A stretch of 64,000 nt of DNA, from contig CANJBZ010000002.1 in assembly GCA_947473475.1 (NCBI GenBank), positions 62,001-126,000 on the forward strand, given 5' to 3'. The stretch comes from Alphaproteobacteria bacterium (lineage in GTDB: Bacteria; Pseudomonadota; Alphaproteobacteria; Micropepsales; Micropepsaceae). The notes beneath the pieces are model-generated. The model saw only the letters and a program-made list of their open reading frames with translations, did no database searches and was not told where the DNA came from. Positions 2,008 to 56,877 of the stretch are shown here, piece after piece (position 1 is the first letter of the stretch; the number at the start of each line of letters is the position of its first letter). The position numbers and the translations under genes are program-made.

Positions 2008-2310
2008 ATGAATGCCGCGCTAAAGGCAGTGGTCGCTTATTTCAGCTCAGTATTTGTCATTGCCTTCGTGCTCGGCTCCTTCCGAGTTCTGGTGATGGCG
2101 CCGAGATTTGGCGAGGTCGTGTCTGTCTCGCTCGAAGCGCCCATCATACTCACCGTTAGCTGGGTCGCCTCACGCTGGACCGCACGCAGGTTCGGTGTGG
2201 CCAGAGACGTTCTGCCCCGATTGCTGATGGGGGCTGCCGCGTTTGCACTGTTGATGTTTGCAGAACTGGGACTGCCGGCGATCGGCCCTCATTGGGAAGC
2301 GCGATGTTGA
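2008..2310 (+). CDS. Small inner-membrane protein
   Basis: The 100-residue product has about three hydrophobic segments (near residues 5-27, 36-55 and 68-90) separated by short Arg-containing loops (SRWTARRFG). The start is set by an AGGAG Shine-Dalgarno at 1998-2002, six bases before ATG 2008; the open frame extends further upstream without a ribosome site. The sequence resembles uncharacterised short membrane proteins common in alphaproteobacteria. No function is proposed. It is followed by about 120 bp without a gene before tRNA-Val. Confidence 0.7.
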   Translation: MNAALKAVVAYFSSVFVIAFVLGSFRVLVMAPRFGEVVSVSLEAPIILTVSWVASRWTARRFGVARDVLPRLLMGAAAFALLMFAELGLPAIGPHWEARC

Positions 2311-2432
2311 AACCCCTGCGCCCGGCTTAGCGGCGGGGGAAGCATGCGATGAAGCGGGCTGTCTGGTCTCACAAGGTGCGCGGGCCTGAAACCGCCATCG
2401 CGCCGATCGATACGGCGAGTGCGTTCTACCAA

Positions 2433-2508
2433 TGGTGGGCGGTGACGGACTCGAACCGCCGACAGCTTCGGTGTAAACGAAGTGCTCTACCAACTGAGCT
2501 AACCGCCC
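2433..2508 (-). tRNA. tRNA-Val (anticodon TAC)
   Basis: The 76-base cloverleaf reads from 2508 to 2433, with acceptor GGGCGGT pairing with ACCGCCC, discriminator A and an encoded CCA. The D-arm contains AGCTCAGTTGGTAGAGC and the T-arm GGTTCGAGTCC. The anticodon stem CTTCG/CGAAG encloses TTTACAC, giving anticodon TAC. It lies just downstream of hup on the same strand, a position seen in other alphaproteobacteria. Confidence 0.97.
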
Positions 2509-2622
2509 GCTCGCGCCGGGTTATAGCACCGGAACGCTGTTCGTTTTCAACGAGCTTGATCCGGTGGCCTGCAGTTTTCATGTGGGGCCGGTGCGCTATT
2601 TCTGCACCGCCCCCTCACCCTA

Positions 2623-2647
2623 CCCTCTCCCCCAAAGTGGGAGAGGG
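2623..2647. repeat. GC-rich inverted repeat downstream of hup
   Basis: A perfect 9-bp stem (CCCTCTCCC / GGGAGAGGG) with a 7-base loop sits between hup and tRNA-Val. No T-run follows on either strand, so it looks more like a REP-type element than an intrinsic terminator. Its edge sequences resemble the larger paired repeats at 15.1 and 51.3 kb. Confidence 0.6.
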
Positions 2648-2659
2648 TTTCCAGGCGCG

Positions 2660-2935
2660 TCAGCCGTTGAGGGCGTCCTTGAGCGGCTTGCCCGGACGGA
2701 AACGGGGCGCCTTGGAAGCCTTGATGGTGATTTCTTCGCCGGTCTGCGGGTTACGGCCTTTGCCGCCTGCGCGCGACGACACCACAAACACGCCAAAGCC
2801 GGTGACGCGAACTTCGTCGCCTTCTTTCAACGCCTCCGTCACCACTTCAAAGACGCCGTCGACGGCCTTTTGGGCGTCCATTTTGGAAAGTCCGGTGCGC
2901 TCAGCCAGCTTCTGGACAAGATCGTTTTTGTTCAC
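2660..2935 (-). CDS. hup: HU family DNA-binding protein
   Basis: The product is 91 residues, the standard HU length. It starts MNKNDLVQKLAERTGLSK, and the DNA-binding arm contains GFGVFVVSSRAGGKGRNPQTGEE, with the conserved RNPQTG at the tip. HU dimers bend and compact DNA. Translation starts at GTG (2933-2935) with AGGAG six bases upstream. It lies 146 bp downstream of lon, separated by a strong terminator, so it is most likely transcribed from its own promoter. Confidence 0.96.
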   Translation of the reverse strand: MNKNDLVQKLAERTGLSKMDAQKAVDGVFEVVTEALKEGDEVRVTGFGVFVVSSRAGGKGRNPQTGEEITIKASKAPRFRPGKPLKDALNG

Positions 2936-3017
2936 GGCGTTCTCCTATGGCGGGATCGTCCCCGCGCGAATCTAAGCTTAAGGCCGGGTTTCAGGCCTCG
3001 TCAAAGCTTCCTACCTG

Positions 3018-3054
3018 AAAAAATACCCCCACAGGTTAATTTCCTGCGGGGGTA
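3018..3054 (-). terminator. Intrinsic terminator of lon
   Basis: Read on the minus strand, a 12-bp stem (UACCCCCGCAGG with CCUGUGGGGGUA, one G-U pair, 7-base loop) is followed directly by UUUUUU. It begins 28 bases after the lon stop codon and should separate lon from hup transcription. Confidence 0.88.
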
Positions 3055-3081
3055 CGAGACTGATTTCTGTAACTTTATTAG

Positions 3082-5535
3082 TTAATGCGTAACCACCGCG
3101 TCGTCGGCGCTGTCGTCGGCGATACGGGCCGGGGGCGGGACCGCGTCATCCGGATCTTCCCAGACGACCGGCGTGGGGGCGCGAACCAGAGCAATCTTGA
3201 CCACTTCCTCCATGGTGGAGACGGGCACGATCTCAAGTCCTTTCTTCACATTGTCCGGTATGTCCGCGAGATCCTTCTCGTTTTCCGACGGAATGATGAC
3301 GGTCTTCAGGCCGGTACGGAGGGCTGCGAGCAGCTTCTCCTTCAGGCCGCCGATCGGCAGTACCCGTCCGCGCAAGGTAATCTCGCCGGTCATCGCCACA
3401 TCGCGGCGAACCGGAATGCCCGTTAGCACCGAGATGATCGATGTCGCCATCGCGACGCCCGCAGACGGTCCATCCTTCGGGGTTGCCCCTTCCGGCACAT
3501 GGACATGAATGTCACGCCGGTCGAACAAAGGCGGCTTGATGCCGAAGGCCGTCGCCCGCGAGCGGGCATAAGAGCGCGCCGCATCGATCGATTCCTTCAT
3601 CACGTCGCCAAGCTTACCGGTGGCCTGGAAACGTCCCTTGCCGGGCACCATGACCGATTCAATGGTCAGCGTCTCGCCGCCCACTTCGGTCCATGCGAGG
3701 CCCGTAACGACACCGACCTGGTCCTCACCCTCCATCTCGCCATAGCGGTGCTTACGCACGCCCGCATAGTCGCCGAGATTGGCTCTGGTGAGTTCGATCT
3801 TGGTTTCCTTGCCCGAGACGATGGCCTTCACCGCCTTACGCGCGAGGTTGGCCAATTCGCGTTCGAGACTGCGAACGCCGGCTTCACGCGTGTAGTAGCG
3901 AATCAGGTCTCGAAGCGCGTCGTCATCGATCGACCATTCGCCTTCCCTAAGGCCATGCGAGGTAACCTGCTTGGACAACAGGTGACGCTTTGCAATCTCG
4001 ACTTTTTCATCCTCGGTGTAGCCGGGGATGCGGATGATCTCCATGCGGTCCATCAGCGGCTGCGGCATGCGCAGCGTGTTGGCCGTCGTGATGAACATCA
4101 CGTCCGACAGATCGAAATCCACTTCCAGATAATGATCGTTGAAGGCGTGGTTCTGCTCGGGATCGAGCACTTCCAACAGCGCCGCCGAAGGATCGCCGCG
4201 CCAATCCGCGCCGAGCTTGTCGATTTCGTCCAGGAGGAAGAGCGGGTTTGCCGTCTTCGCCTTCTTCATGGACTGAATGATCTTACCAGGCATGGAGCCG
4301 ATATAGGTGCGCCGGTGACCGCGGATTTCCGCTTCGTCACGAACGCCGCCAAGGCTCATGCGGACAAATTCGCGTCCGGTCGCCCGCGCAATCGACTTGC
4401 CGAGCGAGGTCTTGCCGACGCCCGGGGGGCCGACGAGGCAGAGGATCGGGCCTTTCATTTTGCCCGAACGGCTCTGCACCGCCAAATATTCAAGGATGCG
4501 TTCCTTGACCTTCTCCAAGCCGTAATGATCCTCGTGCAGCACGTTTTCAGCGAGCGCGAGGTCCTTCTTGACTTTGGTCCGCTTGCCCCAAGGCAGCGAG
4601 AGCATCCAATCGAGATAGTTGCGCACGACGGTGGCTTCCGCCGACATCGGGCTCATCGACCGCAGCTTTTTAACTTCGGCCTGCGCCTTTTCGCGCGCTT
4701 CCTTGGAAAGCTTCGCCTTCTTGATGCGCTCCTCGAGTTCGGCCATCTCGTCGCGGCCTTCGTCGCCTTCGCCAAGCTCCTTCTGGATCGCCTTCAACTG
4801 CTCGTTCAAATAATATTCGCGCTGCGTCTTCTCCATCTGGCGCTTGACGCGGCTTCTGATCTTGCGCTCAACCTGCAGCACGCCGATTTCGCCTTCGATC
4901 AGCGCAAGCACGCGCTCCAGGCGCTCAACGGTGTTGAGCGTCTCCAGCAATTGCTGGCGATCGGGAATTTTGACCGTCAGATGCGAGGCGACCGTGTCGG
5001 CGAGTTTAGCCGGGTCGTCGATTTGCGATACCGAAGCCAAAGTCTCGGCGGGGACCTTTTTGTTGAGCTTGATATAGCCCTCGAAATTGGTTTTCACCGA
5101 GCGCACCAGCGCTTCTATTTCCTGCGCATTGCCGGCTTCTTCGGGGATCGGCTCGACGATAGCCTGGAAAAAGTCCGTACGCGGAGAAAACGTCTTCACG
5201 CGCGCGCGCCCCTTGCCCTCGACGAGAACGCGAACGGTCTGGTCGGGCAGCTTCAGGAGCTGAAGGACGGTCGCCATGGTACCGACGCGATAGAGCCCGT
5301 CCGGCGACGGATCGTCTTCGCCGGCGTTCTTCTGCGTCAGGAGGAGAATCTGCTTCTCCTCGTTCATGACCTCTTCGAGTGCGCGGACGGACTTCTCGCG
5401 GCCCACGAAGAGCGGAACGATCATGTGCGGGAAAACGACGATGTCGCGCAGCGGAAGCACTGCGGACAAATGCCCCTCCGACGCAGGAGGGACGGAGGGA
5501 GGGGGCGGATTTTCTGGATTCAAAGACTCAGACAT
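3082..5535 (-). CDS. lon: ATP-dependent protease Lon
   Basis: This 817-residue protein has the full Lon architecture. The N-terminal substrate-binding domain carries LPLRDIVVFPHMIVPLFVGR near residue 28 and is followed by a coiled-coil region. The AAA+ module has Walker A GPPGVGKTS and Walker B FLLDEIDK. The C-terminal protease domain has the catalytic Ser in PKDGPSAGV and the Lys in GGLKEKLL. It degrades misfolded and regulatory proteins in the cytoplasm. An AAGGAG site precedes ATG 5535. The gene belongs to the conserved tig-clpP-clpX-lon-hup block, but a plus-strand lactonase gene separates it from clpX here, so it needs its own promoter. Confidence 0.98.
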   Translation of the reverse strand: MSESLNPENPPPPSVPPASEGHLSAVLPLRDIVVFPHMIVPLFVGREKSVRALEEVMNEEKQILLLTQKNAGEDDPSPDGLYRVGTMATVLQLLKLPDQTVRVLVEGKGRARVKTFSPRTDFFQAIVEPIPEEAGNAQEIEALVRSVKTNFEGYIKLNKKVPAETLASVSQIDDPAKLADTVASHLTVKIPDRQQLLETLNTVERLERVLALIEGEIGVLQVERKIRSRVKRQMEKTQREYYLNEQLKAIQKELGEGDEGRDEMAELEERIKKAKLSKEAREKAQAEVKKLRSMSPMSAEATVVRNYLDWMLSLPWGKRTKVKKDLALAENVLHEDHYGLEKVKERILEYLAVQSRSGKMKGPILCLVGPPGVGKTSLGKSIARATGREFVRMSLGGVRDEAEIRGHRRTYIGSMPGKIIQSMKKAKTANPLFLLDEIDKLGADWRGDPSAALLEVLDPEQNHAFNDHYLEVDFDLSDVMFITTANTLRMPQPLMDRMEIIRIPGYTEDEKVEIAKRHLLSKQVTSHGLREGEWSIDDDALRDLIRYYTREAGVRSLERELANLARKAVKAIVSGKETKIELTRANLGDYAGVRKHRYGEMEGEDQVGVVTGLAWTEVGGETLTIESVMVPGKGRFQATGKLGDVMKESIDAARSYARSRATAFGIKPPLFDRRDIHVHVPEGATPKDGPSAGVAMATSIISVLTGIPVRRDVAMTGEITLRGRVLPIGGLKEKLLAALRTGLKTVIIPSENEKDLADIPDNVKKGLEIVPVSTMEEVVKIALVRAPTPVVWEDPDDAVPPPARIADDSADDAVVTH

Positions 5536-11044: not shown

Positions 11045-11129
11045 TGGTGCGGGCGGAGGGATTTGAACCCACACGACTTGCGTCACAGGAACCTAAATCC
11101 TGCGTGTCTGCCAGTTCCACCACGCCCGC
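11045..11129 (-). tRNA. tRNA-Leu (anticodon TAG)
   Basis: The 85-base class II tRNA reads from 11129 to 11045, with acceptor GCGGGCG/CGCCCGC, discriminator A and an encoded CCA. The anticodon stem CAGGA/TCCTG encloses TTTAGGT, giving TAG. A long variable arm (TGACGCAAGTCGT) and the T-arm GGTTCAAATCC complete it. It lies upstream of tig on the same strand. Confidence 0.96.
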
Positions 11130-11212: not shown

Positions 11213-12504
11213 CTAGGGTGAGCTTTCGGGTATTATGGCGGAAGCGCGTGCGGCGCGCCTCCCGGCCTGGCCGAGAAACAGCAAAATCCCCGCCGCCATG
11301 GCCAGACCCACGGCCAAAGCCTGCATTCCCGCTCCATAACCGCCGGTCGATTGCCGCAGCAGGCCGACGACGGTTGGGCCCAGAAAGCCGCCTAATCCCG
11401 TGCCGAAGGTGTTCACCAGGGCAATGCCGCCGGCCGCCGCCGTGCCGCTGAGGAACATCGAGGGCACGCTGTAGAAGGTCGGCAGAGCCGAATAAATGCC
11501 AACCGTGGCGAACGTCAGTGCCACGAGGACGGCCAAATTGGACCCGGAAAGACTTGCGATTACCAGGGAAACGGCGGCCAGCAGAGCCGCGGCCGCCACA
11601 TGCTTCACGCGCTCACCATGCCTGTCGCTCGATCGGCCCCAAAACACCATGGCCCCCATTCCAGCCACCGAAGGCACCGCCACAATGAACCCGGTGGCCA
11701 GATTCGAATACCCCATGGACTGGACGATCTGCGGCAGCCATAGCCCAACCCCGTAATTCCCAAAGGAAAGACCAAGTCCGACGGGGCATAGCAGCAAGAC
11801 TCGCGGGTCGAGCAGCGCGGGTCCAAGGCTGTGGTGAGAGGTTGCGTCCTCCGCGGCGAGCCGGGCGGCAATCGCCTGTTTCTCCGTCTGGTCCAGCCAG
11901 GGCGCGTCCTTAGGCCCATCGGGAAGGAACTTCAAAACGGCGAACGCAAGAATGCAGGCCGGAATGCCCTCCAGCAGAAACATCCATTGCCAGCCAGCAA
12001 GACCGCCCGAACCGTTCATCCCCAGAAGCATGCCCGAAATCGGCGCGCCAATTATGTTGGCAAGCGGCACAGCGGTCATGAAGCTCGCCGTGAAGCGCGC
12101 ACGATAGAAGCGCGGGAACCAGAGCGTCAGGTAGAAAATCATGCCGGGGAAAAATCCGGCCTCCGCGACACCCAGCAGGAAGCGCAGCGTGTAAAAGCTC
12201 GCCTGTCCGGCAATAGCGGCGTTCGCGACGGAGATGACGCCCCACACCGCGAGAATCACGCAAATCCAGCGGCGCGCGCCGATCCGCCCAAGAATCAGAT
12301 TCGCAGGCACCTGGCAGAGAAAATATCCGACGAAGAAGAGCCCCGCACCGAAGCCGTAAATCGCCGGTGAAAACCCAAGTCGCGATTCATAGTGAGCGCC
12401 GCGAAACCCACATTCACGCGGTCGAGAAAATTCACGACATACAGCACCACCATGAACGGAATGAGGCGCCACGCGCATTTGGCGAAGAGGCGATCCTCGT
12501 TCAT
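11213..12504 (-). pseudogene. MFS transporter of ACS type, frameshifted
   Basis: The start (MNEDRLFAKCAWRLIPF) and the first transmembrane segment, ending MNRDLGF, are in one frame. The protein continues as SPAIYGFGAGLFFVGYF in the next frame. The break is at a run of four T on the coding strand (12370-12373); one more T would restore a ~430-residue carrier matching the neighbouring intact paralogue, which reads MNKDLGFSPAIYG at the same point. The rest shows the usual 12-segment MFS pattern of the anion:cation symporter family, which imports organic acids. A true frameshift and a homopolymer read error look identical here. Its ATG overlaps the stop of the upstream paralogue as ATGA. Confidence 0.75.
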
Positions 12505-13769
12505 GGGCCGCGCACCGGCTGGCGCGGCGCCATGGAGCGGCCGACGATCAGCGCCAGGACACCCGCCATGAACAACGCGGACGCGAGCGCCATCATCGCC
12601 CGGCTATAGTCCCCATCCTTCGTGAGAAACCCCGTGAGGACCGGGCCGACCAGTCCGCCCGTGGTTCCTATGGCGGTCATGAGACCTATTCCCGCCGCAA
12701 CAGCCGGCCCCGACAGGAACGACGACACCGCGCTGACCTGCGGCGCCAGCGAAGCGAATATGCCGGTGGCGACGAAGGAAAGCGCAATCAGTTTTACAGT
12801 CGTCGATGGGGAGATACTGGCGACCATAAAACCCGCCGCCGCGACAAAAGCCGGGATGGCAATGTGCCAGATGCGTTCGTCGCGGAAATCGCTGGAACGG
12901 CCCCAGAGAATCATCACGACGACCGCCACGAGGTACGGGACCACAATCATAAAGCCGGTGGCCAGCACCGAAAATCCCATGGATGCGATGATCTGCGGCA
13001 ACCACAGGCCCGCGCCATAGCCGCCGGCCAGCACGCCGAAATTCACGAAACCCAGAGCGATCACGCGTCCGTCCAAAAGGACCGAGGTGAGGCTCGATTT
13101 TTCTGTTTTCGGATCGGCCGCCAAACGCGCGGTGACAAGCGCCTTTTCATCCGGGGATAGAAAATTTGCTTCCGACGGACGGTCGGGAAGATAACTCAGG
13201 ACGAAGAAGGCCAGTACGCAGGCAGGCAATCCTTCAAGGATGAACAGCCATTGCCACCCATGCAGGCCGCCCAGGCCGTCCATTTGCAGAATCAGTCCCG
13301 ACAGCGGTCCGCCGATGACGAACGCAAGCGGGCTTCCGGCAAGAAAGGTGGCCGAGAAGCGCGCGCGATAGGCGAGCGGAAACCAATAGGTTAGATAGAG
13401 CAGGACACCCGGAACCAAACCGCATTCCGCCAATCCCAGCAAAAAGCGCAGGAAGAAAAAGCTGGACTGGCCCGCAATAAGCGCATTGCCTGCCGATACC
13501 GCGCCCCATGTCGCCAAAATGGCGAACAGCCACCGGCGCGCTCCGATCCGGTGCAGCATCAGATTGGCCGGAAACTGAAACGGCCCATAGCCCAGGAAGA
13601 AAATCCCGGCGCCGATGCCGTATATCGCTGGGCTGAAACCCAGATCCTTATTCATGGTGAGCGCGGCAAAGCCGACATTCACCCGATCAAGGAAGCTCAC
13701 GACATACAGCAGCGTCACAAACGGAATGATCCGCCAAGCACATTTGGCGAAAACACGATCCTCGCTCAT
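12501..13769 (-). CDS. MFS transporter, anion:cation symporter type
   Basis: The 422-residue polytopic membrane protein has about 12 hydrophobic segments and the FLDRVNVGFAAL motif of the ACS family (phthalate, tartrate and hexuronate carriers). The cytoplasmic loop 2-3 region carries RIGARRW. It probably imports an organic acid anion with protons; the substrate is unknown. Its stop overlaps the start of the frameshifted paralogue by four bases, so the two form a translationally coupled tandem duplication. The gene is divergent from the cytochrome c/Vgb fusion, suggesting but not proving a shared catabolic role. Confidence 0.85.
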   Translation of the reverse strand: MSEDRVFAKCAWRIIPFVTLLYVVSFLDRVNVGFAALTMNKDLGFSPAIYGIGAGIFFLGYGPFQFPANLMLHRIGARRWLFAILATWGAVSAGNALIAGQSSFFFLRFLLGLAECGLVPGVLLYLTYWFPLAYRARFSATFLAGSPLAFVIGGPLSGLILQMDGLGGLHGWQWLFILEGLPACVLAFFVLSYLPDRPSEANFLSPDEKALVTARLAADPKTEKSSLTSVLLDGRVIALGFVNFGVLAGGYGAGLWLPQIIASMGFSVLATGFMIVVPYLVAVVVMILWGRSSDFRDERIWHIAIPAFVAAAGFMVASISPSTTVKLIALSFVATGIFASLAPQVSAVSSFLSGPAVAAGIGLMTAIGTTGGLVGPVLTGFLTKDGDYSRAMMALASALFMAGVLALIVGRSMAPRQPVRGP

Positions 13770-13923
13770 ATCCCCCTGAGGCTTGGTACCGTTAATTTTG
13801 GCGGGGGGACCCTATCACGAAGAGGTGGCCCCAGCGCCAGCCTCTTCGCGCCATCGTGCATTGAGGGCATGAGAGGGGCTCGCTAGATTGCCGCCAACGC
13901 TATTCGCCTTCAGGAGGGATGCC

Positions 13924-15138
13924 ATGAAGAGCTTTTCGCTTGCCTTGATCTCGGCTGGTGCCGCGGTCCTTGTCCTTCCGGCCTTTGCTCAAAGTCAGCT
14001 TCCCAACGGCAACGGCAAGCAGATCGTAGAGACGCAATGCACGGTCTGTCACGAGGTGCTGCGCATCACCAATTCGGGCCATAGCCGCGAGGAATGGGAC
14101 ACCGTCGTCCACAACATGATCATGATGGGCGCGGTGCTTAAGCCCGAACAGATTTCGGTGGTGACAAATTACCTCGCATCGAATTTTCCACCGAAGGCCA
14201 AGTCGAACGTCGCGACGATTTCCGGCACGGTGCAGGCAAACTTCAAAGAGTTCAAACTGCCGACGCGCGCGTTCCCGCACGATCCGTATGCGGCCGCCGA
14301 TGGCTCGATCTGGTATTCGGGCCAGCTCGGCAATGTGCTGGGACGCGTCGATACAAAAACCGGTCAGGTGAAAGATTATCCCCTGCCCGCAAGCTCCGGC
14401 CCGCACGGCCTGATGGGCGATAAAGACGGCAACATCTGGTTCACCGGCAATTTCGCGGGCTATGTCGGCAAGCTCGATCCCAAGACGGGCAAGGTCACGC
14501 AGTACCCGACGCCGGGCGCGCGCGATCCACATTCGCTGGTGTTCGATCCCGACGGCATTTTGTGGTTCACGGCGCAGGGCGCGAACCAGGTCGGACGCGT
14601 CGATCCCAAGACCGGCGAGGTGAAAATGGTGCAGGTGCCGACGCGCTTTGCCGCGCCGTACGGCATCGTGATGAGTTCCAAGGGCGTCCCATTCTTCTGC
14701 GAGTTCGGCGCCAATAAGGTGGCCAGCATCGATCCCAAGACGATGAAGATCACCGAATACACTTTGCCCAATCGCGACACGCGCCCGCGCCGGATTGCGA
14801 TCACCAAGGACGATGTTCTCTGGTACGGCGATTACACACGCGGCTATCTCGGCATGTACGATCCGAAGACCGGCAAGTCCAAGGAATGGAAATCACCGGC
14901 GGGCTTGGATTCCGCGCCCTACGGCATCACCGCAGGCGCCGACGACGCGGTCTGGTATAGCGAGTCCGGTGCTTCGCCCAACACGCTGGTTCGCTTCGAT
15001 CCGAAGACGGAGAAATTCCAGACCTGGAAAATCCCCTCCGGCGGCGGCACCGTGCGCAACATGATGGCAACCAAGGACGGCAATCTCGCGATAGCAGAGT
15101 CAGGAGAAAACATCGTCGCGTTGGTAGAGCTGAAATAG
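13924..15138 (+). CDS. Secreted cytochrome c fused to a Vgb-type beta-propeller
   Basis: The 404-residue protein starts with a Sec signal (MKSFSLALIS..., cleavage near AFAQ). A short cytochrome c domain has the heme motif CTVCH near residue 40 and a Met-rich distal segment (MIMMGAVL). From about residue 95 a virginiamycin B lyase-like propeller follows, with repeated IWYSGQ, IWFTGN, LWFTAQ and VWYSES blades and GRVDPKTG connectors. AGGAGG at 13911-13916 fixes the start. Known Vgb opens streptogramin lactone rings, but propellers fused to cytochrome c are more likely redox or sensing proteins; no antibiotic role can be claimed. Confidence 0.82.
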   Translation: MKSFSLALISAGAAVLVLPAFAQSQLPNGNGKQIVETQCTVCHEVLRITNSGHSREEWDTVVHNMIMMGAVLKPEQISVVTNYLASNFPPKAKSNVATISGTVQANFKEFKLPTRAFPHDPYAAADGSIWYSGQLGNVLGRVDTKTGQVKDYPLPASSGPHGLMGDKDGNIWFTGNFAGYVGKLDPKTGKVTQYPTPGARDPHSLVFDPDGILWFTAQGANQVGRVDPKTGEVKMVQVPTRFAAPYGIVMSSKGVPFFCEFGANKVASIDPKTMKITEYTLPNRDTRPRRIAITKDDVLWYGDYTRGYLGMYDPKTGKSKEWKSPAGLDSAPYGITAGADDAVWYSESGASPNTLVRFDPKTEKFQTWKIPSGGGTVRNMMATKDGNLAIAESGENIVALVELK

Positions 15139-15140
15139 AA

Positions 15141-15330
15141 GCTCCTCCCCTGCGAAGCGGGGGAGGGGAACCATGCGAAGCATGGTGGAGGGGGCTGCCG
15201 CGCGCTCAATCCCTCGTCGTGAAGCGCAGATTTTTTTATGCTTGGACTATTGAGGAGCTGAGCGGTGGCCGCCCCCACCACCACTTCGCGGTCCCCCTCC
15301 CCCCGCTACGCTGCGCTCCGCAGGGGAGGA

Positions 15331-15332
<2 letters not shown>
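15141..15332. repeat. Inverted pair of GC-rich repeat elements (type A)
   Basis: Two copies of an approximately 60-bp element face each other between convergent genes. The left copy (15141-15198) reads CTCCTCCCCTGCG, GGGGGAGGGG, ACCATGCGAAGCATGGTGG, AGGGGGC in order. The right copy (about 15265-15332) reads similarly on the other strand, with CCTCCCCTGCGGAGCG and a GGTGGTGGGGGC end. Both contain internal stems. The central ~65 bp includes a T7 run (15232-15238). The right copy ends at the YgiQ stop codon. Confidence 0.7.
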
Positions 15333-17391
<2,059 letters not shown>

Positions 17392-17522
17392 CGGACCAAC
17401 CTAGAGGAAAGCGGAACCCAGCGCACGCCGCGATTTCGTGAGCGCTGGCGAATGACAAGTAAAAAACCTCCATTCTTGATACCATGTACAACGTATGCGC
17501 GAGCAAAAGGGGATTCTCGATC

Positions 17523-17954
17523 ATGGAAAACGGCCCTCCCCGGCTGATTGAGGCAGCAGGCGGAATTGTCGAGCGCGAAACCTCCGAAGGGAAATTGATC
17601 GCCGTCGTCCATCGCGAAAGATATGGACGCGAGTGTGCACTCCCTAAAGGTAAGCGCAAACCCGGCGAAACCCTCCTGGAAACGGCTCTTCGTGAGGTGA
17701 ACGAAGAAACCGGGCTTTCGCCCACGGTGCACGAATTCGCGGGAACCAATTCTTACAGTGTGGGTAGCACGCGCAAAATTGCTGTGTACTGGCGCATGAG
17801 CGTTGGCACCGCCGAGACAAATTTGTCGCCCAAAGACAGTGAGGCGGTTACCGCCGAGTGGCTATCACCAGAGCAGGCGATAGAGTGCCTGACTCATAAA
17901 GACCAGAGCGAGCTTATTCTTAAAATCTACGGCCGCCGGAGGACCGCACGATGA
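17523..17954 (+). CDS. Nudix hydrolase, first gene of a two-gene cassette
   Basis: The 143-residue protein has a perfect Nudix box, G-x5-E-x7-REV-x-EE-x-GL, reading GKRKPGE...REVNEETGL, which binds Mg2+ and hydrolyses nucleoside diphosphate-X substrates. The family substrate cannot be deduced. ATG 17523 puts the domain at the usual distance from the terminus; an in-frame ATG at 17484 adds 13 residues but has no Shine-Dalgarno, whereas AAGGGG precedes 17523. The stop overlaps the next ATG as ATGA, so the two products are probably made together. Confidence 0.85.
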   Translation: MENGPPRLIEAAGGIVERETSEGKLIAVVHRERYGRECALPKGKRKPGETLLETALREVNEETGLSPTVHEFAGTNSYSVGSTRKIAVYWRMSVGTAETNLSPKDSEAVTAEWLSPEQAIECLTHKDQSELILKIYGRRRTAR

Positions 17955-18796
17955 GCTTGTGCGTAAGATTGAAAAGGCTGCCTCGTCTTTCCAGTTGGAA
18001 GAGGATTGAGGCAGAAATATCGGCGTACGAAAAAGAACTGGCGGCACGGCAGAAGCGGGAAGAACCGTCTGAAAAATTCACGGCGATAACGGACGCATTA
18101 TCCGCCGCGAACGACGCGGTTGTTAAAGGTGAAATCGAACGCGCGTGGCGGTGTTATCACCTCTCGCGTAGACTTTATTTTTTCGTCGCCACACCTGCGG
18201 AATTGTACGCTTCTGCGGTCACTCTGAGGCACGAGGCCGAAAAGTTGAGGAAGTGGCGGAAGGACGCTATTGAAGAACTGCTAAATGAAGGCTGTGACGA
18301 TTTTAGGGCCCGCATTTACGAAGCAGCCTCTCTTAAGGACGAGCATTTCGCCAACGAGGCTTACAAAGACGGCCTTCTCCGCTGGAGAGCTATCCACTTT
18401 GCCGTGATTATTCCCTTGTTACTCGCAGCGTTTTCTGGCGTCGCATTCTTAGAACATGCCCCAAATGTGGACATGCCCGTGAACCCGTGGGGGGCGTTGC
18501 CGCTCGTATGGCTGGCCGGTCTGCTCGGGGCGGCCGTCAGTGCGGTCACCAATCTGCCGAGCCAGGGCCAAGGAACCCGCATTCCCGAACTTGCGGCAAC
18601 GCTCCGCGTGACGATGCTGCGACTCCTTACCGGCGCAGCCATGGCGACAATCATTTACACCGCCGCGAAGGCCGGCGTTTTGTCCAACCTGTTCAACATG
18701 GGAAGCCACGGTGTCACACTGTTTCTTTGCATTGCAGCAGGATTCAGCGAGCGCCTCGTACCCAAAGTTATGGAAACATTTGCGTCGCAAAAGTGA
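17951..18796 (+). CDS. Helical multi-pass membrane protein coupled to the Nudix gene
   Basis: The 281-residue protein has a charged, helical cytoplasmic N-terminal half of about 140 residues, rich in Lys, Glu and Arg. Three to four membrane segments follow: AIHFAVIIPLLLAAF near 145, LPLVWLAGLLGAAVSAV near 175, LLTGAAMATIIYTAA near 215 and a last one ending in AGFSERL. The AGFSERL end and the GA-x-S-x-V loop recur in uncharacterised membrane proteins next to signalling enzymes; I do not recognise a named domain. It starts inside the Nudix stop codon. One sampled line (18001-18060) has about 55% GC, which looks low for this window. Confidence 0.75.
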   Translation: MSLCVRLKRLPRLSSWKRIEAEISAYEKELAARQKREEPSEKFTAITDALSAANDAVVKGEIERAWRCYHLSRRLYFFVATPAELYASAVTLRHEAEKLRKWRKDAIEELLNEGCDDFRARIYEAASLKDEHFANEAYKDGLLRWRAIHFAVIIPLLLAAFSGVAFLEHAPNVDMPVNPWGALPLVWLAGLLGAAVSAVTNLPSQGQGTRIPELAATLRVTMLRLLTGAAMATIIYTAAKAGVLSNLFNMGSHGVTLFLCIAAGFSERLVPKVMETFASQK

Positions 18797-18829
18797 GCGG
18801 CACAACCACTTACCGCAAATAGCATATAT

Positions 18830-20347
18830 TTAATCCGAGCTACGGCGTTCATTGGTTCGCCGGTCATGTCCGGCCAGCGCGCGAAGCACAACCGGCAGCA
18901 ATTCGGGAAGGTCTTCCGCGATCAATCCGAGCCCAAAACGGTTCGCCGCGTCTCCATGTATCCAGGCAGCGGCATTGGCTGCATAAAACGCATCCATGCC
19001 TTGCGCCAGCAGGCCGGTAATCATGCCGGTCAGCACATCGCCCGCCCCCGCCGTTGCCAGCGTGGGTGGCGCATTAGGGTTAATGGCCGCCCTACCGTCC
19101 GGGGCCGCGACGACGGTATCGGCGCCTTTCAGAAGAACTACGCAGCCCGCCGCCGATGCCGCTTCACGCGCGGCCAGCAGGCGTGAGCCGGAACGCTTCA
19201 GCAAGCCCGGAAAGATGCGCTCGAACTCCCCATCGTGAGGGGTAAGAACAGCCTTGGCATGCAGTTGGCGAAACAGCGCAGCGGGATCCTCTGCGAAAGA
19301 CGTCAGCGCATCGGCGTCCAGCACAACGGCAGCGCCGCTTGCGAGCGCTGCGGCGGTGAGGTCCTGCGTCTCTGCCCCTACCCCGCAGCCCGGCCCAAGC
19401 GCGACCGCGTTGAAGCGCTTGTCGCTGAGAAGCGCGCTTAGACCTTTCGCGCCCTCGAACGGCTTTATCATGATGGCGGTGAGATGCGCGGCATTGACGC
19501 CAACCGCATCAAGCGGGCTGGCAACACTGACTAGCCCTGCCCCGACCCTCAGCGCGCCCCGCGCCGCCAGCCGTGCCGCGCCAGTGGCGTGCATCGGACC
19601 GCTGACAATAACTGCATGGCCGCGGTCGTATTTATGGGCCGTGGGTGAAAGCGCGGGGAATTTTCCCCGCCACAGATCGCGGCCATTCTCGAAGGTTTTG
19701 ACGCCGATGGTCTGCAAGACGGACTCGGGAATACCGATATCGGCGACGCGAACCTCTCCGCACAAAGCCCGTCCGGGAAAGAACAGATGCCCCGTCTTCC
19801 TACGGAAGAACGTCACCGTATGGCTGGCGCGCATGCACAGACCATCTGGCCCATCTAAAGGACGGCCCAGATCGCCGTGCAAACCGCTCGGCACATCGAC
19901 AGCCAGAACCGGCAAGCCGCTGGCATTGGCCGCGCGCACGGCGTCTGCGGCCACTCCCTCCAAGGGACGCGAAAGGCCCGCGCCGAAAAGCGCGTCGATG
20001 ATGAGCGTGGCGCCTTTGAACGCATCCGCTCCGAACGGCAGGAACGGCCCGCGCCAGCGTTTGGCCATTTCGGCCGCGTCACCCTTCAGGCCGTCAGCCG
20101 GGGCAACGGAGACGGCGCGCACCTGATACCCGCGCTCGCGCAACTTGACGGCCGCGCAATACCCATCGCCGCCATTGTTGCCGGGGCCGCACAGAACGAC
20201 GACATGGGCAAACGGGTACAGCGCATCGACCGCATCGGCGATCGCCGCGCCGGCATTCTCCATCAGCTTGATGGAAGGCACACCAGCAGCCACGGCAAGC
20301 CGGTCGGCCTCGCCCATTTCCGCAACCGTGAGGACTTCGCCGCTCAT
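18830..20347 (-). CDS. nnr: Bifunctional NAD(P)H-hydrate epimerase / dehydratase
   Basis: The 505-residue fusion repairs damaged NAD(P)H hydrates. The N-terminal YjeF_N epimerase domain (about 1-215) has VVLCGPGNNGGDGY. The C-terminal carbohydrate-kinase-like ADP-dependent dehydratase domain (about 225-490) has VVLDADAL, LTPHDGEFERIFP and TAGAGDVLTGMI. E. coli YjeF has the same two-domain order and similar length. The ATG overlaps the stop of the upstream aminotransferase gene by four bases (ATGA). Confidence 0.96.
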   Translation of the reverse strand: MSGEVLTVAEMGEADRLAVAAGVPSIKLMENAGAAIADAVDALYPFAHVVVLCGPGNNGGDGYCAAVKLRERGYQVRAVSVAPADGLKGDAAEMAKRWRGPFLPFGADAFKGATLIIDALFGAGLSRPLEGVAADAVRAANASGLPVLAVDVPSGLHGDLGRPLDGPDGLCMRASHTVTFFRRKTGHLFFPGRALCGEVRVADIGIPESVLQTIGVKTFENGRDLWRGKFPALSPTAHKYDRGHAVIVSGPMHATGAARLAARGALRVGAGLVSVASPLDAVGVNAAHLTAIMIKPFEGAKGLSALLSDKRFNAVALGPGCGVGAETQDLTAAALASGAAVVLDADALTSFAEDPAALFRQLHAKAVLTPHDGEFERIFPGLLKRSGSRLLAAREAASAAGCVVLLKGADTVVAAPDGRAAINPNAPPTLATAGAGDVLTGMITGLLAQGMDAFYAANAAAWIHGDAANRFGLGLIAEDLPELLPVVLRALAGHDRRTNERRSSD

Positions 20348-56229: not shown

Positions 56230-56877
56230 TTAAGAGCGGCGGCGGCGAACTGCGCCAAAAGCCAAGAGCCCCACGCCCAGCAAAGCGAGCGTAGCAGGCT
56301 CAGGCACGGTACCAATCGTATCGACCCGGCCACGGATTCGCATTTGAACGCCTGTCGAGGCCGGCGCTGTAGAAGCCGTATTCGCAACGACGATCTCCAG
56401 CGTGTTCAAGCCAGCAAGGAAGTTCGACGAAATCGTGAACTTTTTGAACGATGCCCACGGCGAACTGGACGCGGGCGGAGAGTTGAACACATTGACGCCG
56501 TTCAAAAGAATAGAGCCCGACTTGTCCAACGCAATCGAACCCTTCAGCAACGCCGTCAAAGGATCATGGCCCGTGAGATCGAACGTCGTCGTATAGGTGA
56601 ACGGCCCCGATCCGGCATTGCCGGTAAAATTCGGACTTATCCATTCTGAAAAAGCGGTGTTTCCAACCCAACCCAACCCGCCTGGCGTACCGATCGCAAA
56701 GGCGTTGCCGCCCGGAGAAACTGTGTAATGCGGATCGGCAGCACCATCCAAAATGGGCGTGCCGAACGCATCGACGCCGGTGCTGAAGATATCAATGGGA
56801 ACTGCTGCGGCAGGTTGCGCTGCCGCCATCGCAACCGCCACTGCGGTTGCGGCAATAATCCAATTCAAACGTGCCAT
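56230..56877 (-). CDS. PEP-CTERM sorting-signal protein
   Basis: The 215-residue exported protein starts MARLNWIIAATAVAVAMAAAQ and ends with the PEP-CTERM signal VPEPATLALLGVGLLAFGA plus RRRRS, which an exosortase cleaves. The middle is a beta-sandwich-like region with no known catalytic motif. GAGGGGCAC precedes ATG 56877; an in-frame ATG eleven codons upstream is not preferred. No exosortase gene is seen in this window. It likely ends up in the envelope or extracellular matrix. Confidence 0.9.
   Translation of the reverse strand: MARLNWIIAATAVAVAMAAAQPAAAVPIDIFSTGVDAFGTPILDGAADPHYTVSPGGNAFAIGTPGGLGWVGNTAFSEWISPNFTGNAGSGPFTYTTTFDLTGHDPLTALLKGSIALDKSGSILLNGVNVFNSPPASSSPWASFKKFTISSNFLAGLNTLEIVVANTASTAPASTGVQMRIRGRVDTIGTVPEPATLALLGVGLLAFGAVRRRRS

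Follow-up and report, generated by a model that had tools for sequence, protein, structure and literature searches.

Overlapping genes for a Nudix hydrolase and a predicted four-helix membrane protein in a variable chromosomal interval, and the scattered unnamed family to which the membrane protein belongs

Introduction

Do a soluble Nudix hydrolase and a multi-pass membrane protein whose genes overlap constitute a signalling or defence module, or are they two accessory genes that share an operon? The question is raised by a locus of an alphaproteobacterium of the family Micropepsaceae, contained in a stretch of DNA of 64,000 nucleotides that was analysed as a whole and is referred to here as the window. 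An earlier note on this DNA had proposed such a module, in which the Nudix enzyme might control the membrane protein or be sensed by it. The answer depends on how the two genes are joined, what the proteins resemble, how the locus came to its chromosomal site and whether the pairing recurs elsewhere.

The gene pair and its translation signals

The Nudix gene occupies positions 17523..17954 of the forward strand (stop codon at 17952-17954) and encodes 143 residues; an alternative in-frame ATG at 17484 on the same strand would give 156. The Nudix box lies at 17649-17717 (residues G43 to L65). The gene for the 281-residue membrane protein, 17951..18796 on the same strand, begins with the ATG at 17951, has a stop codon ending at 18796, and overlaps the Nudix stop as ATGA in the open reading frames. 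The perfect box and the overlap, both described in the earlier note, are confirmed. Reading of the forward strand points to a ribosome-binding-like site for each gene: AAGGGG at 17507..17512, 10 nt before the ATG at 17523, and GGAGGA at 17938..17943, inside the Nudix gene and 7 nt before the ATG at 17951. The overlap and this internal site make joint production of the two proteins probable. The tight coupling is real, but it is not unusual: among 20 codirectional neighbour pairs in a simple set of 52 window genes, 7 share 4 bases or 1 base, including the next pair to the right of the membrane gene (aminotransferase/nnr). Since such overlaps are common in the window, this one points to co-translation and not to a special module. 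A promoter and terminator scan gave nothing usable, its single promoter-like site lying on the minus strand within the membrane gene.

The Nudix protein

The enzyme assignment is straightforward. The protein matches Pfam PF00293 with E 4.9e-17 (62.6 bits against a curated cut-off of 21.1), and residues 43-65 fit the pattern GX5EX7REUXEEXGU exactly. Its best relatives in the PDB are 5gg5 (8-oxo-(d)GTP phosphatase type, E 1.1e-9), 9cxx, Ndx1 (1vc8) and ADP-ribose pyrophosphatase, and it resembles nucleotide-pool enzymes. With the MutT1/Ndx1-type hydrolases it shares the perfect box, the LPKGK..GE lead-in and a PF00293 score above cut-off. It differs from them in length, being 143 residues long where the two best relatives have about 340 (the match to 5gg5 spans residues 69-174 of 342), and it falls far under the cut-off of the NCBIfam MutT1 equivalog (61 against 475 bits). 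A phage origin of the gene was considered and set aside: of the PHROG Nudix families, the best match reaches 3.4e-12. Relatives in viral contigs are partial (43% identity over 56 residues), and those on plasmids, in four records, reach at most 38% identity. In a class sample of 385 genomes, matches at E 1e-8 occur in three, the genome of the window included. The best, at 45% identity, adjoins a decarboxylase-like gene (by eye), and the other adjoins a membrane protein unrelated to that of the window.

The membrane protein and its unnamed family

The N-terminal half of the membrane protein (residues 1-143) is helical and charged, with 26 K/R and 25 D/E, and hydropathy predicts four membrane segments after it, all encoded on the forward strand. 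TM1 comprises residues 148-166 (18392..18448; Kyte-Doolittle peak 2.26), TM2 residues 181-199 (18491..18547), TM3 residues 220-238 (18608..18664), and TM4, placed by hydropathy and alignments, peaks at residues 247-265 and continues into AGFSERLVP at 263-271 (18689..18763). The charges of the loops suggest that both termini face the cytosol. The helical charged half and the three to four membrane segments of the earlier description therefore stand, with four by hydropathy; the statement that the protein ends in AGFSERL does not, as this motif is followed by VPKVMETFASQK and is not C-terminal.

Known families offer no name. Pfam, NCBIfam, PADLOC, PHROGs and the PDB, the last also searched with a sequence profile, returned no family at a meaningful score. 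An AlphaFold2 model is all-helical and weak (mean pLDDT 65.9, pTM 0.40), and we draw no claim about the fold from it; its structural matches in the PDB number 94 at E <=10, none of them at E 0.001 or better. Searches with the single sequence found no relatives in plasmids or phages and none that were confirmed among genome and viral contigs. It took a genome search across the class, and alignments thereafter, to bring relatives to light. At E 0.01 the class search matched 12 of 385 genomes, of which, besides the window, two loci were kept, L002 and L006. Eight of the nine other matches were rejected as frames without AGFSERLVP, several of them resembling transporters, amidases and other enzymes, and the ninth (L008) was left out of the family set. 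The window protein matches L002 at E 3.4e-6 in a single-sequence search of one genome and L006 at 4e-8 in a single BLASTP comparison; tblastn values go down to 2e-9, as E values relative to the candidate stretches only. These similarities span the TM core and do not depend on a model trained with the window protein.

The profile search proposed in the earlier note yielded AGFSERLVP relatives, but no named family in the five libraries. Profiles matched 10 of 327 genomes of the class at E 0.001, the window's own genome counted, and 22 of 398 in the phylum at E 0.01, not all of which are true members. Relatives were found in 11 of 90 pattern stretches from genome contigs and one of 15 from viral contigs, and on plasmids in sets of two and four records. 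Over all loci, hmmsearch at E 1e-6 retrieved 39 distinct frames, and the tree was built from 38 rows after removal of L128 and of the first half of L123 and addition of the window protein. The latter forms the longest branch (2.52), is at most 25% identical to any other row, and its position is unsupported. It nevertheless carries every position that is invariant in the alignment: G190, G193 and S197 in TM2, R224 and G228 in TM3, and GFSE-x-L. The N-terminal parts vary across the family; a helical N-terminal half with one invariant tryptophan (W66 in the window protein) is common to seven loci (L021, L022, L030, L048, L050, L089 and L090). Judged by its transmembrane core, the window protein is a very divergent member of an AGFSERLVP four-TM family. 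This family is what is new here: it is absent from the five libraries and sparse on chromosomes, islands and plasmids. It goes unnamed in the available parts of PMC7159879 and PMC9503650 and may be named elsewhere in the literature.

Chromosomal site and composition

The pair lies in a block of 3,691 bp (15139..18829) that is absent from the congener G002. To its left is a gene for a Vgb-lyase-like propeller protein (13888..15138, forward strand; PF24684, E 1.5e-51), and to its right is nnr, encoding an NAD(P)HX epimerase/dehydratase (18830..20347, minus strand; PF01256 and PF03853). In G002 nnr directly adjoins the Vgb-lyase-like gene, their 3' ends overlapping, and tig-like and clpP-like genes follow. 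As G002 is 74% complete and the single case of an empty site, its state may reflect a loss there rather than a gain in the lineage of the window. The block also contains, divergent from the pair, a gene for a ygiQ-type radical SAM protein (15331..17391, minus strand; PF08497, E 1.4e-137). An imperfect inverted repeat lies between the Vgb-lyase-like gene and ygiQ (15143..15330, with 17-nt arms at 15143-15159 and 15314-15330), and the block junctions showed no evident target-site duplication.

The far anchor of the interval is a tRNA-Leu gene (11045..11129, minus strand) adjoining tig and clpP. Between it and the Vgb-lyase-like gene, at 11213-13769, the window has two similar tandem transporter-like genes (by eye). 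The gene beside nnr differs among the congeners, being acetyltransferase-like in G006 and transporter-like in G001 (both by eye), so gene content between tRNA-Leu and nnr varies within the genus. The earlier note had placed the pair alone between housekeeping genes. That is correct for the conserved right flank, nnr, but not for the left, where ygiQ is absent from the other six genomes of the genus and the interval varies. ygiQ is found in one of seven genus genomes, several of the other six being incomplete, and in 16 of 96 family genomes, with 75-86% identity where present. It has a GC3 of 0.745 and codon use normal for the window, and may have moved separately from the pair.

The lower GC that the earlier note had seen in one sampled line was borne out by a GC3 and codon scan. 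Measured from the ATG at 17523, the GC3 of the Nudix gene is 0.601, below all 52 window genes (median 0.724), and that of the membrane gene is 0.612; both are among the poorest in codon fit within this crude gene set, which includes the two genes themselves. Because both are odd in composition, they were probably acquired together. Two other places in the window are unusual in the same measures. Two short frames at 2008-3085, around tRNA-Val (2433-2508), rank last of the window in codon fit and could be a second acquired patch, and a 215-residue minus-strand frame at 56230-56877, low in GC3 and codon fit, ranks fifth lowest of the 52.

Distribution agrees with composition. Among the 96 family genomes, which an order-level search returned again unchanged, the membrane gene occurs in one (the window's own) and the Nudix gene, at E 1e-6, in two, the second at 28% identity, against 82 for nnr. 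Many of these genomes are incomplete; among the 60 that pass a 90%/5% quality line, the membrane gene is present in one and nnr in 58. Lateral acquisition of the pair, which the earlier note had raised, is supported by the low GC3 and codon fit, the restricted presence of both genes and the empty site in G002. The same sparse occurrence, together with the different interval genes in each congener examined, would suit a transient passenger without selected function on its way to loss. We consider this very improbable: both frames are intact, the start sites and the Nudix box are preserved, and the membrane protein has kept the invariant residues of its family core.

Recurrence of the pairing

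A module should recur, and here the proposal finds no support. In 37 loci of membrane-protein relatives, each spanning 6.6 to 16.4 kb, tblastn with three Nudix queries at E 0.01 detected no Nudix gene. These loci count one viral contig twice (L051 and L132), and some members, L136 and L102 for example, are weak; L044 and L047 apparently share their source organisms with L002 and L006. A loose Nudix-box pattern found only the window itself (L016) among L002-L051, nothing in the predicted genes of L093-L106 and L133-L137, and no box near 14 ygiQ loci of the family; for L089-L092 the check consisted of tblastn and annotation. Neither tblastn nor the box pattern would necessarily find a Nudix gene of very divergent sequence. 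At locus L086 (1206-2628), a Nudix gene and, 31 bp downstream, a membrane gene also stand together; as this membrane protein is non-homologous (E 1.1) and matches no Pfam family, it is not a second instance of the pair. The two closest Nudix relatives of the class sample adjoin unrelated genes. For the membrane-protein relatives that could be found, this is the outcome that the earlier note had named as refuting its proposal, homologues mostly lacking a Nudix neighbour, and the survey gives no support to a two-gene module of signalling or defence that recurs. The other refuting outcome named there, ordinary housekeeping genes paired at the same place in every relative, clearly does not apply. 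A functional link in this one species is possible.

The form such a link could take is a switch, in which the Nudix enzyme degrades, or makes by cleavage, a nucleotide ligand sensed by the helical domain and so holds the effector off or on. Enzymes that clear nucleotide signals are known beside membrane effectors in other systems. The overlap with its internal ribosome-binding-like site and the odd composition of both genes are consistent with the switch, as is a weak match of the Nudix protein to the PADLOC candidate PDC-S07 (E 1.5e-5), which in our reading reflects mere Nudix resemblance. With no second instance, a Nudix enzyme like those of the nucleotide pool and no signal-making enzyme nearby, we regard the switch as distinctly unlikely.

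Neighbourhoods of the relatives

The surroundings of the relatives suggest another role. Of six annotated plasmid loci, four (Skermanella L013, R. etli L014, Bosea L089 and S. meliloti pSymA L092) carry protease or wall-hydrolase genes within about 6 kb, a category comprising caspase-family, C1 peptidase, M23, lysozyme, N-acetylmuramoyl-alanine amidase and NlpC/P60 genes; the R. leguminosarum and Isosphaeraceae loci have none within that distance. The Bosea locus has a TIR-domain gene too. Such features number 10 of 63 near the plasmid relatives, while five arbitrary stretches of 50 kb, taken as controls from five of these plasmids, have 0 of 203; the Isosphaeraceae plasmid has no control. Since the loci had been viewed before the category was picked, and the gene tables have gaps, this enrichment is a lead only; six loci are few and their clusters may be related. 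In PMC7159879, caspase, lysozyme-like and papain-like domains figure as parts of predicted conflict systems.

On chromosomes, one relative (L094) has an adjacent Amidase_2 gene. Two relatives in Pseudomonas, L041 (7326-8405) and L045 (7200-8303), adjoin the same kind of dihydrouridine synthase gene, the former also a phage-type integrase, and the viral-contig record L051 holds a copy very similar to them; a mobile island at the dihydrouridine synthase site is likely. L047 has a relaxase in its locus. Most chromosomal relatives stand among ordinary genes. One family has close copies in three of its genomes; L099 and L106, the two inspected over a longer stretch, lie beside uvrA (UvrA by Pfam) and a trmFO-like gene.

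On this evidence the membrane protein could be the component that acts at the membrane in a system of the conflict or cell-lysis type, its helical domain receiving a signal and its four-helix core disturbing or signalling at the inner membrane, with the Nudix gene as a local add-on. The proteases, wall hydrolases and TIR gene of the plasmid loci, the amidase of L094 and the mobile settings of L041, L045, L047 and L051 argue for it. Apart from the post hoc choice of category, it is weakened by the mostly ordinary chromosomal settings of the relatives, three of them beside uvrA/trmFO-like genes, and by the window locus, which has no adjacent caspase or peptidoglycan-hydrolase gene and whose membrane protein has no PADLOC match. 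We hold it to be unlikely. A bolder extension, to which we attach little probability, would make the AGFSERLVP proteins undescribed membrane effectors or sensors of mobile conflict systems with exchangeable partners. On plasmids the partners would be proteases and peptidoglycan hydrolases; in the window, the partner would be a Nudix enzyme that adjusts how much of a nucleotide ligand is present for the helical domain to sense.

The favoured reading

The reading that we favour, with about even confidence, is that of two accessory genes in one acquired operon within a variable interval, their proteins most likely acting separately. Both genes would be cargo gained by the lineage as a unit. The Nudix protein would be a soluble pyrophosphatase of the 8-oxo-(d)GTP, dinucleoside-polyphosphate or ADP-ribose type, predicted to cleave NDP-X in the cytosol in a metal-dependent manner. 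The other product would be an inner-membrane protein combining a cytosolic helical domain with the four-helix core of the family. The two would be co-translated, and we infer independence of function from the relatives of the membrane protein, which do without a Nudix partner. Two points count against independence: joint production favours some functional relation, and the true close kin of so divergent a protein may be missing from the collections and could pair with Nudix genes.

Comparison with known systems

In CBASS with a transmembrane effector, a membrane protein likewise stands beside a nucleotide-acting enzyme. The window locus differs in having no nearby nucleotide cyclase and an enzyme of a degradative class. 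The statement of the earlier note that this is not a standard CBASS locus holds: no CD-NTase gene is present among the neighbours, which are Vgb-lyase-like, ygiQ and nnr (by Pfam) and aminotransferase, PII and glutamine synthetase genes (by eye). PADLOC 2.0.0 gives no model hit for the membrane protein and, for the Nudix protein, only the weak PDC-S07. The EACC1-caspase system, as presented in PMC7159879 (eLife 2020), is similar in placing a membrane protein in a two-gene operon, and some AGFSERLVP relatives lie near caspase genes. EACC1 has a single conserved TM segment and is partnered by a caspase-type protein, whereas the window protein has four predicted segments and a Nudix partner; the caspase-superfamily or cyclase partner required for EACC1-caspase is absent from the locus.

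With the unnamed AGFSERLVP family itself, the window protein shares GxxGAxxS in TM2, RxxxG in TM3 and GFSE-x-L at TM4, and it differs from the rest in being the only member found adjoining a Nudix gene. The pair itself is probably ordinary accessory cargo, and the proposed module lacks recurrence among the relatives found. The useful outcome is the family, which deserves a survey of its own: a widely scattered core of four helices in which glycine and arginine positions and GFSE-x-L are strictly kept, joined to variable N-terminal domains and, on plasmids, set in surroundings rich in proteases and wall hydrolases.
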